DNA of 52,959 nucleotides from contig JAFGEW010000113.1 of NCBI GenBank assembly GCA_016931415.1, forward strand, positions 1 through 52,959. Reading direction: 5' to 3'. Source of the stretch: Verrucomicrobiota bacterium (GTDB lineage: Bacteria; Auribacterota; JABMQX01; JAFGEW01). The notes beneath the pieces are model-generated. The model made no database searches and was not told the origin of the DNA. It worked only from the letters and a program-made list of their open reading frames with translations. Position numbers and translations under genes: made by a program. Shown here in pieces: positions 22,668-30,560 of the stretch (positions are counted from its first letter, which is position 1; every line of letters begins with the position of its first letter).

Positions 22668-24479
22668 CTACCCGACGAGCCAGTAGACCAGCGCGACGAC
22701 GCCGATGAGGTAGAAGCCGGCGTCGGTGACGACCTCGGTGGTCAGTCCGGCGGCGAGGACGCCGCGGTTGTAGAGCACAACACAGAGAAGCGCGTACACC
22801 GGACCGACGAGCAGCCACAGCCCGAGTGGGCTCGTCCAACCGGCGAGGACGCCGACGACGAGGGCCGCCGCGCAGACGCCGAGCAGCCCGTAGAGCAGGC
22901 GCTTGGTCCAGTCGCGGCCGATGATGATCGGCACGGTCTCATTGCCGACCATGAGGTCGCCCTGGATGTCGCGCATGTCGAGCACCATGGTGCGCGCGAA
23001 CACGATCGTGAAGGCGAACAGAAACGCCACGCCGCCGCCGAGCAGCCGGTGCGTGCTCCAGCGTGCCGTGTCCTCGAACAGCGGCAGCACGACAGTGATG
23101 ACCGCCCACGCACCCGCGATACCAAGGTCCTTCGACGACGGGATGTCGCGCATGCGGCGCAGCCGTCTCGCCACGAAGCGCGGCACGATGGGCAGGCTGT
23201 AGATAAGGCCCATAAGCGTGAGGAAACAGACGATGGCGAACGGCACCCACCCAAGCACGGCCGACAGCCCGATTCCCGTTGCCGCCGCAACGACGCCCAG
23301 CGGAATGAGCACGCGCTTGTACCGTTCGAGGAAGGCGTGCTTGTGCGACTCCTTGTAGAGCGCGTACTCGGGGTCGGTGAAGTGGTTGAGGATGTGGCAG
23401 GCGAACACGTAGCACGCGGCGACGGCGATCGGCAGCGGCATCGGCGGCGCCGCCTCTCGCGCCGTGCGCAGCAGGGCAATGCAGGCGAAGCAAAGCAGGC
23501 CCGCACCGATGCCGACGTAGAGGTCGCTCTTGACGAGGAAATCGAGCAGCAGGCCGACGGCGCGCGCCGCCCACGGCTTGCGCGTACGGCCGATGGCCTG
23601 GAGTTCGGCGATCACTTTCTCGATGAGCCAGTTGGGCGTCGACGCCCCGGCAGTGACCCCGACCACGTCGTGCCCGGCGAGCGCGGCTGCGTCGAGCTCG
23701 TCGGCATCCTCGACAAGGTACGCGTTGACGCCGAGTCCGCGCGCGATGCTCGCGAGCCGCTGCGTGTTGGCGCTGTGGGCGCCGCCGACCACGACGATGG
23801 CGTCGCAGCGCTTGGCGAGGCGGCGCACTTCGTCCTGGCGCTCAACGGTGGCGTTGCACACCGTGTCGAACACCTTCATCCGCACGCCACGCTCGCGCAG
23901 GGCGGCAACCACACGCTCGAAGAACGCCCGGTCCTGCGTGCTCTGGGCGACGACGCACAGCGGCGCATCGGCGGGCACGGCGTCCAGATCGGCCTCGGTC
24001 TCGACGACCATGCCGCGATCGCCCGTGTGGCCGAGCAAGCCGACGACTTCGGCGTGCCCCTTATCGCCGACGATGAGACCGGTGAAGCCCTTCTCCGTGT
24101 AGCGGTCCAGGATGCGCTGGATGCGCAACACCAGCGGGCAGGTGGCGTCGAGGCAGGCGAGGCCGGCTTCCTCAATGGCGCGCCGCACGCGCGGGGGCAC
24201 GCCGTGGGCGCGGATGACTACCGTGCCGCCGGGCGGGGCTTCGTGGATCTCCTCGACCACGCGCACCCCGTTGCGTTGGAGCATCTCGACCGTGTGCCGG
24301 TTGTGGATGAGCGGGCCGATGGTAACCAGCTCGCGGGCAGCAATCCCGGCCGACTTGCCCGGTGAGGACGCCCTGCCAGACTCCACGGCCGCGGCTGTTC
24401 CCGCAGCCGCCAGGACCAAGTCGACGGCCCGGCGCACGCCCATGCAGAAGCCGGCGGTCTTGGCGACGATGATCTTCAT
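22668..24479 (-). CDS. ispH: IspH-UbiA fusion: HMBPP reductase plus prenyltransferase-like membrane domain
   Basis: 603-residue fusion. Residues 1-300 are 4-hydroxy-3-methylbut-2-enyl diphosphate reductase, the last step of the MEP isoprenoid pathway, with the three cluster cysteines Cys12 (FCMGVRRAV), Cys114 (DATCPL) and Cys208 (DTVCNAT), His59, His92, His142/Glu144 (GHAEVVG) and SANT at 236-239. A short insertion (about 29-47) is unusual. Residues 305-603 form a UbiA-type intramembrane prenyltransferase fold of about eight helices with the second acidic motif DMRDIQGD at 501-508, but the first motif is degenerate (NHFTDPEYALYK instead of NDxxDxxxD). No stop or frame change separates the halves. 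Making and consuming prenyl diphosphate in one chain is an inference. Confidence 0.88.
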   Translation of the reverse strand: MKIIVAKTAGFCMGVRRAVDLVLAAAGTAAAVESGRASSPGKSAGIAARELVTIGPLIHNRHTVEMLQRNGVRVVEEIHEAPPGGTVVIRAHGVPPRVRRAIEEAGLACLDATCPLVLRIQRILDRYTEKGFTGLIVGDKGHAEVVGLLGHTGDRGMVVETEADLDAVPADAPLCVVAQSTQDRAFFERVVAALRERGVRMKVFDTVCNATVERQDEVRRLAKRCDAIVVVGGAHSANTQRLASIARGLGVNAYLVEDADELDAAALAGHDVVGVTAGASTPNWLIEKVIAELQAIGRTRKPWAARAVGLLLDFLVKSDLYVGIGAGLLCFACIALLRTAREAAPPMPLPIAVAACYVFACHILNHFTDPEYALYKESHKHAFLERYKRVLIPLGVVAAATGIGLSAVLGWVPFAIVCFLTLMGLIYSLPIVPRFVARRLRRMRDIPSSKDLGIAGAWAVITVVLPLFEDTARWSTHRLLGGGVAFLFAFTIVFARTMVLDMRDIQGDLMVGNETVPIIIGRDWTKRLLYGLLGVCAAALVVGVLAGWTSPLGLWLLVGPVYALLCVVLYNRGVLAAGLTTEVVTDAGFYLIGVVALVYWLVG

Positions 24480-24607: not shown

Positions 24608-24828
24608 AGCCCCCGCGGGGGGCGGCATGGTGGTAGCCACGCGCGTGAGCCCGTGGACTACGGGCGGGACAGTGTCCACAAGCCCCCGCAGGGGGCGGCA
24701 TCTGCGCCCCGTCTTTGTCATGTGCCGCCCCCTGCGGGGGCTTGTTTGGAGGAAGGGCAGAGCCGTTCCTGGTTCCACGGGCTGACGCCCGAGGCTACAC
24801 GGTGTTGCCCGCTGCGCGGGCTACGTCG
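24608..24828. repeat. GC-rich REP-like palindromes in the 686-bp ispH-hsp20 gap
   Basis: Within the gap 24480-25165 are clustered repeats. One unit at 24608-24663 reads agcccccgcggggggcggca followed by a tagccacg...cgtggac palindrome. A second is a perfect 22-bp inverted repeat with arms at 24679-24700 and 24723-24744, core GCCCCCGCAGGGGGC, with a 22-nt loop. Further fragments lie at 24773-24795 (ccacgggctgacgcccgagg) and 24808-24822 (cccgctgcgcggg). Related copies are at 30369-30560 and 34370-34435. A 7-bp dyad, CTGGAGA...TCTCCAG, is at 24502-24526. The remaining 24830-25165 shows no supported gene. Confidence 0.75.
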
Positions 24829-26292: not shown

Positions 26293-26314
26293 CCCCCTCC
26301 AGGAGGAGCACACA
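26293..26314 (+). repeat. Direct repeat, copy 1 (flanks HNH-WYL gene)
   Basis: A 22-bp segment containing CTCCAGGAGGAGCACACA is identical to 27373-27394 on the same strand. Partial similarity continues to both sides (tcctccgatgt versus tcctcggatgt on the left, ggccccgg versus gggcccc on the right). The two copies bracket the HNH-WYL coding sequence about 1.08 kb apart. Confidence 0.75.
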
Positions 26315-26397
26315 GCGGGGCCCCGGGACACGGGGCCTCGTTGCTGCCTACTGAGGAGTGGCTGAGCGTGCTGCTTTACACCGACTGCCGGTGAATC

Positions 26398-27252
26398 TCA
26401 CCCGTCATGGCACGGACCCGGAACATCTGCAATCTTGACACCTCTCATGCGCTTGATGGCGAAGACCCTCTCCGCATTACGAAGGTAGCAGTGGCCAAAC
26501 ACGCAGAGAGACCGACCGACACGCTTCATGCCTTCAGGTCTTAGAGAGCGGACGCTCCTGGCACCGTCGAACTTCGTGTACGAGAAACTCACGAGCCTGT
26601 TCTCGTTCATTGCCTGGCGCAGTAAGGGGAGCCTCCTGCCAAAAGCGCCCACGTGTTCGGCTGTTAACTGCGAAAAGGGCCTGTCGCTATGCTGCTTGCT
26701 GTGGCACTCTTCGCAGAGCGTCACCAGATCACCGAGCCTGTGGTTGCCCCCCTGAGATATGGGCGTGTTGTGGTGAGTGTGGCGCGTGCGCCCGAATCCA
26801 AGGAAGTCACCACAGTCCTGGCAGGTGTAACCATCTCTTTCCCCAGCCGCGGCGGCTCGCGAGTCCCAGTCGGGCGGGTATGTAAGCCAGTAATCGTAGA
26901 GCTCCCGCCTGACGTCCAGAAGAATCGCCCGAGTGTCTGCAAGCTCCCGAAGCTCCTGCGAGATCGCAAGCTCCCGCGATGCCAACTCCTTTGGATCAAC
27001 CTTACTACCAAAGAAGGCTCGCCTCAGTCGCGAGATGAAGGACGAGTACCTGGCGATCTCCCGGCCAATCCCACGGAGCTGCTCCTCGTGTGCCGCAATC
27101 TGACCGGAGACCCCATCGATATCGGTCAGCAATGTGGTGTAACAGGAGAGATGGTAGACCTCCCCATTGCACAGGGACTCACCTCGCGGACAGGGCTCGC
27201 CACAGAGCCTGCAGACGTCCGCCACAACTCCGGCTTCTGGCTCAGCATTCAC
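26398..27252 (-). CDS. Zinc finger-coiled coil-HNH nuclease-WYL domain protein
   Basis: 284-residue four-part protein not matched to a named family. Residues 14-37 have CRLCGEPC...C...HxxC spacing, a small treble-clef or LIM-like zinc site. Residues 45-125 are helical/coiled coil. Residues 140-188 form an HNH endonuclease: YTCQDCGDFLGFGRTRHTHH, N170, then LCEECHSKQH. Residues 205-275 match a WYL ligand-binding domain: NENRLVSFSYTKFDG, then SLRPEGMKRVGRSLCVFGHC and RVFAIKRMRGVKI. HNH domains cut nucleic acid; WYL domains sense nucleic-acid or nucleotide ligands and regulate phage-defence genes. No helix-turn-helix is present, so WYL may gate the nuclease. Direct repeats flank the gene and the neighbouring HEPN gene is co-oriented. 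Function in defence is inference. Confidence 0.75.
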   Translation of the reverse strand: MNAEPEAGVVADVCRLCGEPCPRGESLCNGEVYHLSCYTTLLTDIDGVSGQIAAHEEQLRGIGREIARYSSFISRLRRAFFGSKVDPKELASRELAISQELRELADTRAILLDVRRELYDYWLTYPPDWDSRAAAAGERDGYTCQDCGDFLGFGRTRHTHHNTPISQGGNHRLGDLVTLCEECHSKQHSDRPFSQLTAEHVGAFGRRLPLLRQAMNENRLVSFSYTKFDGARSVRSLRPEGMKRVGRSLCVFGHCYLRNAERVFAIKRMRGVKIADVPGPCHDG

Positions 27253-27372: not shown

Positions 27373-27394
27373 CCCCCTCCAGGAGGAGCACACA
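27373..27394 (+). repeat. Direct repeat, copy 2 (between HNH-WYL and HEPN genes)
   Basis: Second copy of the 22-bp repeat at 26293-26314, lying in the 320-bp spacer 27253-27572 between the two island genes. The spacer has no other recognisable feature. A short open frame on the minus strand here shares a CSSWRG peptide with one at copy 1 only because of the repeat. Confidence 0.75.
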
Positions 27395-27572
27395 TCCGGG
27401 CCCCACCCCTGCGCCCCGTTGGTCATTCGGGAAATGAGAGAGCATCCCCCAATCCACCTCCTGATCACGCGACTGGGGGCGACGACGAGTAGCGTCCCAA
27501 GATGCACGCGCGGCCATGGCCGTTCTGCTTCCTGGTTTGGAGCCGCTTCGCAGCCTCCTCCCAAGGTGCGCT

Positions 27573-28922
27573 TCAGATTTTCCGCCTGAGCTTGTTCCCT
27601 GTGTGCCTTCCAGATCCCACGGCGGTAAGGAGCCTCAGGAACTCCTCCTCCTTGCTTTCATCAGCCAGCACCTGAAGGAACTCAGAGTCGTCAAAGCCCT
27701 CGGACACCCTCTCCAGCACAAGGTGGCATAGGCTTCTCAGACGCCTCAGCTTGGCCGGGTTCGCGATTCTGCTGTGGAGAATCGTGCTTGATCTTATGGA
27801 CTTCACGAAGGCATATGCAGAATCGTCATCGCACTTCGTGAACATGATCTGGATACTAGGAGCTGCCCCGTTCGCGAAAAAATCGGTTCGGGCGAAGTGG
27901 GGACTCCTCCCGACGTAACCCACATAAGTGTGCGTCAGCGCCCATATGTAATCGTCAATCAGATCGGGGGGAATGTAGCCAGCATATGCCCGCAGTTCCT
28001 TAACGCAATCGTCCTCAACACTCCAGTCGTCAAGGTTACTCTTGAGTCGCTGTATGATTGGTGCGAGTTTGTACTTGCGCGCGTTCACTGAAAGATAACG
28101 CATCCCCCCAACGAGTCGCACGAAATCGAAGGCTCTGTCGGTCTCGGTCTTATTGCTTTTCGGGATCAGGGAGTCAACGCGCCTTGCGACGGCTAGCTTC
28201 GCGTGCTTGGGCAGTACTTTCCAGAAGATCGGGGCAACGAACTCGATGTTGCCTCGGAGGACCGAGCTGGACTCCGGGTGAACATAAGCACTTAGCACCC
28301 GGTGAACAAGCTGGTCCTTATAGGTTTCAGGAAGATCCCCGAGGGCGTTCTCGACGGCCACCTCATTCCGGTCGAAATCCTCATTGCCAAGCACGGTCAT
28401 GTAGTCGTCGATGTCCACGATCTGGAGGGGGTAGTCCTCGCTGAGGACATACTTGACGCAATCGTCCATCATTGCCAGGACCTTGAGAACGGAGGGTTCT
28501 GAGCTGTGAGGATGTCCCGTAAACACGTGGCGGATCTGCTTCGCTTGAAGCAGCATCTTGCGCGCTTCCCATCCAATCACACCTATCTTGTAGGCGCCCT
28601 CGATCAACTCGTCGTCGGTGACGTGATCCTGGAAATCCTCGTAGGTCTTCACCTCCCGGCGGGTCTTCACCTCGCGGTTGAACGATGAGAGGCTCCGATG
28701 CATCACCTTACGGCGGAGATCATCAACAACGGCATTCCAGAATGAACCTATGGCACTTCTGTGGCCCCCTACGGGCAGGACATGAAGCGCCTCCTTGATA
28801 TAGGGAGAGTCAAGAAGCTCGTCGCGGACCCCGCTAATGGTACGTTGGAGAATTGGCAGGAAATCGTCTTGACGAAAGGAAGGCACCAACTCCGATTTGC
28901 CGACTCGCTTGGTCTTGCTCAT
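27573..28922 (-). CDS. HEPN-domain protein, probable RNase toxin/abortive-infection type
   Basis: 449-residue protein of no named family that I recognise. The N-terminal third reads as a HEPN four-helix bundle: helix VGGHRSAIGSFWNAVVDDLR at about 51-70, then WEARKMLLQAKQIRHVFTGH at 118-137, where Arg131-His132 and His137 fit the catalytic R(polar)x4-6H motif of HEPN ribonucleases. The following 300 residues are helical, with VLAMMDDCVKYVL, a repeat-like middle and a lysine/arginine-rich C-terminus; no other catalytic motif is visible. The start at 28922 follows AGGGGAAAGGGG; a frame extension to 28961 is rejected. G+C in sampled lines is about 53-55 percent against 65-67 elsewhere, suggesting transfer. 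It precedes the HNH-WYL gene on the same strand. Confidence 0.7.
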   Translation of the reverse strand: MSKTKRVGKSELVPSFRQDDFLPILQRTISGVRDELLDSPYIKEALHVLPVGGHRSAIGSFWNAVVDDLRRKVMHRSLSSFNREVKTRREVKTYEDFQDHVTDDELIEGAYKIGVIGWEARKMLLQAKQIRHVFTGHPHSSEPSVLKVLAMMDDCVKYVLSEDYPLQIVDIDDYMTVLGNEDFDRNEVAVENALGDLPETYKDQLVHRVLSAYVHPESSSVLRGNIEFVAPIFWKVLPKHAKLAVARRVDSLIPKSNKTETDRAFDFVRLVGGMRYLSVNARKYKLAPIIQRLKSNLDDWSVEDDCVKELRAYAGYIPPDLIDDYIWALTHTYVGYVGRSPHFARTDFFANGAAPSIQIMFTKCDDDSAYAFVKSIRSSTILHSRIANPAKLRRLRSLCHLVLERVSEGFDDSEFLQVLADESKEEEFLRLLTAVGSGRHTGNKLRRKI

Positions 28923-28957
28923 CGCTGGCCCCTTTCCCCTGAGATCGATTATCTCGG

Positions 28958-28979
28958 GCACCTACTCTCTGCTAGGTGC
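28958..28979. promoter_or_regulatory. Operator-like palindrome upstream of the HEPN gene
   Basis: Perfect inverted repeat GCACCTA-CTCTCTGC-TAGGTGC centred about 46 bp upstream of the HEPN start. Next to it at 28941-28955 is a second small dyad, GAGAT-CGATT-ATCTC. Position and size fit a dimeric repressor site over the promoter. The remaining intergenic sequence to 29333 shows no gene or clear promoter. Confidence 0.45.
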
Positions 28980-30368: not shown

Positions 30369-30560
30369 AGCCCGCGCAGCGGGCGGCATCTTGTAGCCAC
30401 GGTCGTCAGACCGTGGACCATGGGTTCAACTCGAAGAGCCCCCGCAGGGGGCGACATGCGGGATGTGGGAATCGGCCCTCGACGAGAGAAGATCACATGC
30501 CGCCCCCTGCGGGGGCTCCGCCCGCAGGACTCCTACACTCCACTCCCGCGGGGGCGCCGC
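30369..30560. repeat. GC-rich REP-like palindromes upstream of the dehydrogenase pair
   Basis: In the 341-bp gap 30297-30637. The first unit at 30369-30420 is agcccgcgcagcgggcggca followed by the ccacggtc-gtca-gaccgtgg palindrome. The second is an inverted repeat with arms at 30436-30458 and 30496-30518, core GCCCCCGCAGGGGGC, one mismatch, 37-nt loop. A fragment, cccgcgggggcgccgcc, ends at 30561. It is the same family and the same order of parts as at 24608-24744. No supported gene in the gap. Confidence 0.75.

Follow-up and report, generated by a model that had tools for sequence, protein, structure and literature searches.

The WYL domain is mostly familiar as the sensory part of regulators that control phage-defence and DNA-damage genes. 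Makarova et al. 2014 include the HNH endonuclease in their list of enzymes found fused to WYL (PMC4012209). In the Pif1 helicase of Thermotoga elfii, deletion and point mutation showed that ssDNA binding depends critically on the WYL domain, and in that of Deferribacter (DdPif1) ssDNA is contacted by R464, R491, R495, R498 and R501, these contacts being themselves modelled (PMC9964779). Conserved WYL arginines are also required for ssDNA binding by PafBC (PMC11804915).

The gene considered here lies on a stretch of 52,959 nucleotides that was analysed at its full length (hereafter the window; contig JAFGEW010000113.1 of a Verrucomicrobiota bacterium), and its product joins an HNH nuclease domain to a WYL domain. 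The sequence-only reading of this DNA had presented the combination as unfamiliar; because the fusion already figures in the list of Makarova et al. 2014 (PMC4012209), the architecture is not a novelty per se. No paper describing an HNH-WYL family was found in the open-licence literature, in which the four-part family reported below, its distribution and its reading as an ssDNA-binding nuclease appear to be undescribed.

Domain architecture and family members

The HNH-WYL gene (positions 26398-27252, minus strand) is an intact open reading frame with a GTG start, and encodes a protein of 284 amino acids. This begins at the N-terminus with a CxxC…HxxC finger and an α-helical coiled coil; a YPPDW linker then leads to the HNH domain, and the WYL domain is C-terminal. 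The HNH domain (residues 138-190; 26683-26841, minus strand) was matched by Pfam PF01844 (E 1.5e-8, residues 144-189, 35.1 bits for a cut-off of 21.4), and the WYL domain (residues 202-280; 26413-26649, minus strand), the only one detected in the 4.06-Mb host genome, by PF13280 (E 7.7e-10, residues 208-274, 39.1 bits for a cut-off of 21.8). Both families score above their cut-offs in 7 of 7 family members, and the two assignments are considered secure with high confidence. The Pfam scan detected no helix-turn-helix in the protein, the N-terminal half of which is taken up by the finger, the coiled coil and the HNH domain, and the direct junction of HNH and WYL that had been proposed from the sequence is confirmed. 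The protein terminates directly after the WYL barrel, without a C-terminal extension.

The zinc-finger-like motif (residues 14-37; 27142-27213, minus strand) has a weak LIM-like similarity, and no Pfam zinc-finger family exceeded its cut-off at this position; the finger is judged to be real on grounds of conservation, because C14, C17, H34 and C37 are invariant in all seven members. The linker (residues 125-129; 26866-26880, minus strand) is a signature of the family, with Y125, P126, D128 and W129 invariant (7/7), together with R132, and P127 replaced by D in one of the seven proteins.

An AlphaFold2 model was built with six family sequences (mean pLDDT 83); its pTM was only 0.58, so that the relative placement of the domains is uncertain. 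The model comprises helices at residues 35-69, 72-81 and 87-120, which form the coiled coil (residues 35-120; 26893-27150, minus strand), then the HNH region and, at the C-terminus, a beta-barrel of Sm/SH3-like fold (strands 221-274). The best solved match found by Foldseek was CapW (E 2.4e-5), and the next were BrxR, PafBC and DriD, all of them WYL proteins; Hfq and Sm proteins were also among the fold matches. Using VIA-align, the WYL barrel (model residues 200-283) was superposed on BrxR with a Z score of 11.3 and an rmsd of 4.0 over 84 residues, and a WYL fold is thus present where it had been predicted, after residue 205. The HNH region (residues 122-195) aligned with that of EcoKMcrA (Z 7.7, 24% identity). 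The four-part organisation anticipated by the sequence-only reading is borne out by Pfam, the AlphaFold2 model, the fold comparisons and the conservation of the finger.

Six other proteins, 26-34% identical to the window protein and found in unrelated bacteria and proviruses, have the entire architecture, which excludes a chance arrangement or a frame artefact. They are encoded by a provirus contig (L028/L042), Bradyrhizobium algeriense (L031), a Pelagibacteraceae cell (L032), a Kordiimonadales chromosome (L033), a second provirus (L066) and a genome of the Synergistaceae phylum (L065/L100/L106), the element of this last member being also present in IMG/VR. These relatives surfaced only when alignments of the WYL domain, then of the full-length proteins, were used as queries; scans of genome and viral contigs with the single protein returned no relatives, and a four-row alignment combining HNH-only and WYL-only proteins was too loose to serve as a query. 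Proteins in which the linker-HNH block was present and no WYL was seen were excluded from the count, namely those of a Treponema (L035) and of a member of the Synergistaceae cut by a contig end (L036). The haloarchaeal plasmid matches, which are HNH proteins, were likewise set aside (two that were inspected share the YPPDW/YPSNW-HNH block, with no WYL seen), and the plasmid proteins matched by WYL alone gave weak hits, most of them being annotated as regular YafY/WYL proteins.

The family is very rare and extremely patchy. Counting the starting genomes, it was found in 2 of 385 Alphaproteobacteria, 1 of 265 genomes of the genus Bradyrhizobium, 2 of 185 of the Synergistaceae phylum (one shortened by the contig end) and 1 of 347 of the Pelagibacter order, and no full-length homologue was found in the other 43 of the 44 genomes of the host's own phylum. 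One genome of that phylum (G008) encodes a 217-aa protein (L003, 1111-1764, minus strand) whose WYL domain is 44% identical to that of the window and in which no HTH or HNH was seen and the C-terminal part is unassigned, another WYL protein that is not a regulator.

The residues invariant in all seven members include, in the HNH domain, the zinc cysteines C144, C147, C180 and C183 and the histidines H160, H161, H184 and H188, and, in the WYL domain, F223, Y225, R235, P239, C255, R258, R262 and F264. Position 175 corresponds to the middle N of HNH in the six other proteins and is D in the window copy, which, judging from this substitution, could be weakened as a nuclease. Membrane-anchor-like hydrophobic stretches are present at the N-terminus of two members (L042 and L065; 19-residue hydropathy of 2.7 and 3.1, respectively) and are lacking in the others.

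Probable binding partner of the WYL domain

When the seven-member profile was compared with PDB sequences, the best WYL matches were domains at the C-terminus of two bacterial Pif1 helicases, those of Thermotoga elfii and Deferribacter desulfuricans (E 3e-11 and 4e-11). In the alignment, with residue pairs counted by hand from the chain numbering, R464, R491, R495 and R501 of DdPif1 correspond to R235, R258, R262 and R268 of the window protein, and R498 has no counterpart (A265). The window WYL contains 17 arginines and lysines, and conservation is restricted to R235, R258 and R262 (7/7) and R268 (6/7, with K in the remaining protein); four of the five modelled Pif1 ssDNA-contact arginines are thus conserved in the family. 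Among the fold matches, the WYL domains with solved ligand complexes (CapW and DriD) carry ssDNA. Based on the Pif1-type match, the aligned conserved arginines and the need for arginines in PafBC, ssDNA is, from sequence comparison, the likeliest ligand of this domain, and we infer that it either recruits the nuclease to its substrate or switches it on.

The sequence-only reading had suggested that the nuclease is switched by a signal, either a nucleic acid or a nucleotide. A nucleic-acid signal is plausible, but a sensor switch is no likelier than the binding of a substrate or guide, which would be at least as probable because the closest solved WYL by sequence is the ssDNA-binding module of Pif1. 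The corresponding alternative is that infection gives rise to a small or modified nucleotide, to which the WYL domain responds by turning the HNH domain on allosterically, as CARF does for effectors. Such ligand gating was proposed for WYL-enzyme fusions in Makarova et al. 2014, and the conserved basic residues and Cys255 fit the ligand-groove pattern given there (PMC4012209). It is considered unlikely here: none of the neighbours examined was recognised as a gene for nucleotide synthesis or for a ring nuclease, the WYL closest in sequence is part of an enzyme, where it binds ssDNA and is not a sensor, and the complexes of CapW and DriD point to ssDNA instead. An ssDNA-directed or ssDNA-activated nuclease is therefore favoured over a small-molecule-gated switch, as the conserved WYL arginines align with the Pif1 ssDNA contacts.

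Genomic contexts and possible role

In two of the proviral loci (L042 and L100/L106), the gene is located between XRE-type regulators and a tyrosine integrase, a usual location for cargo genes, and in the third (L066) it adjoins the tape-measure gene. In the Kordiimonadales chromosome it stands alone, as a transposon-like unit, between two copies of an IS6/IS240-type transposase in direct orientation (93.5% identical over 771 bp). In Bradyrhizobium algeriense it is convergent with a complete set of Lamassu genes at a distance of 88 bp (LmuB 3e-148, LmuC 1.5e-47, LmuA 4.8e-82). At the Pelagibacter locus no neighbour is clearly a defence gene. The GC content of the gene is 7-20 points below that of the locus in four of the six other loci (L031, L033, L042 and L066), the remaining two showing no GC contrast. 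Defence-island placement had been named in the sequence-only reading as support for a new system; placement in defence or mobile regions is seen in the relatives, through the Lamassu neighbour and the proviruses. No neighbour recurred across the family loci, so that a role in defence rests on island company and not on an operon. The gene is well supported as a mobile accessory gene, and a role in defence is likely, on indirect evidence.

In the Synergistaceae-phylum element (L100, 5329-9232, minus strand), HNH-WYL is followed by a 253-aa protein, an HSP90-like ATPase, a radical-SAM/B12 protein and the integrase; the genes between HNH-WYL and the integrase are possibly a cargo module.

In the window (GC 0.659), a low-GC patch is formed by the HNH-WYL gene (0.595) together with its neighbour at 27573-28961 (0.552). 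The HNH-WYL gene is bracketed by two copies of a 32-bp direct repeat, the downstream copy at 26293-26324 and the upstream copy at 27373-27404, which are 94% identical and 1080 bp apart; 0.01 such matches are expected by chance in the window, and no other close copy exists in the genome. The origin of the repeat is unexplained, and it could be a recombination site, a duplicated regulatory element or the footprint of an insertion. The low-GC island lies between REP-like palindromic repeats (AGCCCCCGCAGGGGGCGGCA) at 24608-24742 and at 30369-30517; such repeats number 57 in the genome when at most 2 mismatches are allowed, and none was obtained with a reversed-pattern control. No tRNA or Rfam RNA was detected in the window, and promoter and terminator patterns were at chance level. 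Elsewhere in the window, a single open reading frame of 603 aa (22668-24479, minus strand) fuses LytB (IspH) to a UbiA-type prenyltransferase.

The next gene (27573-28961, minus strand) lies 320 bp upstream of HNH-WYL on the same strand and encodes a 462-aa protein of the prophage family phrog_27609 (E 9.7e-74). One relative (43% identity) is carried by a plasmid of Klebsiella variicola, beside ppl, an anti-phage gene, and others are in prophages; a repeated viral scan with the protein returned only the three loci already found. The sequence-only reading had looked to a HEPN partner, which is unsupported: no Pfam, PADLOC or NCBIfam family, HEPN included, scored above threshold in this protein, its moderate-confidence model resembles helical repeats without a HEPN match, and the sole hint of a HEPN-like motif is a conserved R-x5-H stretch (R144-H150). 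As its family was not found beside HNH-WYL at other loci, the neighbour is an island companion rather than a proven partner. The phrog_27609 family (also at L102 and L103-L105) occurs across prophages and enterobacterial plasmids and adjoins ppl in one defence island, and is itself a candidate for a role in defence.

The same contexts bear on a reading in which the protein would be a housekeeping nuclease of phages or mobile elements (in replication, recombination, packaging or homing), tethered by its WYL domain to ssDNA intermediates and having no part in defence. Three members are in proviruses, and HNH enzymes are common phage proteins, as the PHROG matches reflect. Such a role appears quite improbable, given that the family had no match in 50,697 phage records, that the gene lies between regulators and integrase in two of the three proviruses and not in replication or packaging blocks, and that members also occur outside phages (L031, L032, L033 and the window).

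The reading of the protein as a mobile, probably defensive HNH nuclease whose Pif1-type WYL domain allows ssDNA to direct or activate it is considered about as likely to be right as wrong. In this scheme, the gene would spread horizontally as a single-gene nuclease, and the WYL barrel would grip ssDNA, whether exposed on phage or plasmid DNA as this invades or replicates, or freed by other defence enzymes. Once bound to ssDNA, the WYL would recruit or activate the HNH domain, a beta-beta-alpha-metal nuclease for which the coiled coil serves as a stalk and the zinc finger as a cap, and the adjacent DNA would be cut. The coiled coil probably makes the nuclease dimeric, and in two proviral members the extra N-terminal hydrophobic segment may place it at the membrane, where phage DNA enters. 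Taken in full, a rare, dispersed single-gene anti-phage system consisting of a dimeric HNH nuclease recruited or activated by ssDNA via WYL, and anchored in some proviruses to the membrane so as to cut incoming phage DNA, is put forward tentatively, as somewhat less probable than not. In such a fusion, the enzyme that cuts would itself receive the ssDNA signal and, if the reading is true, ssDNA recognition would be an effector-level trigger in defence, in a system of one gene and one small protein (about 30 kDa) that offers specific residues for mutation.

Comparison with known systems

Among solved proteins, the nearest to the WYL domain of this family is the C-terminal WYL of bacterial Pif1, which has the same arginine set and likewise forms a short domain at the end of an enzyme; that enzyme is a helicase, however, not a nuclease, and has neither zinc finger nor HNH. 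BrxR, CapW, PafBC and DriD share the WYL fold (Z 8-11), with ssDNA-bound structures for CapW and DriD and ssDNA binding by PafBC, but these are regulators of transcription with an HTH and, in common cases, a C-terminal extension, whereas the HNH domain is found here instead. The HNH-WYL protein was accordingly rejected as a WYL transcription regulator, since it has no wHTH and no C-terminal extension.

On the nuclease side, ZorE, the HNH protein of type II Zorya, has a similar HNH block (about 30 bits of similarity); identity with ZorE was rejected, the protein scoring 22.9 bits against NCBIfam NF041791 for a cut-off of 600, and no Zorya genes were recognised alongside HNH-WYL. EcoKMcrA, a type IV enzyme, shares the HNH fold and the arrangement of zinc ligands and histidines, and differs in that no modified-base reader was found in the HNH-WYL protein, which has a WYL domain in its place. 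That the protein is itself an McrA-like type IV restriction enzyme, its zinc finger and/or WYL reading modified DNA for the HNH to cut, would agree with the HNH match in fold and sequence and with the lack of a recognised methyltransferase neighbour, but is very unlikely, as Pfam detected neither SRA nor EVE nor any other known reader domain and the reading of modified bases by WYL is not described in the literature examined.

A precedent is the fusion of WYL to HNH in Makarova et al. 2014, with which the present proteins share four basic residues and the Cys of the refined WYL pattern; as listed there, it is a combination only, without a family, zinc finger, coiled coil, distribution or mechanism (PMC4012209). 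The family reported here gives substance to a fusion that had stood as one list entry since 2014.
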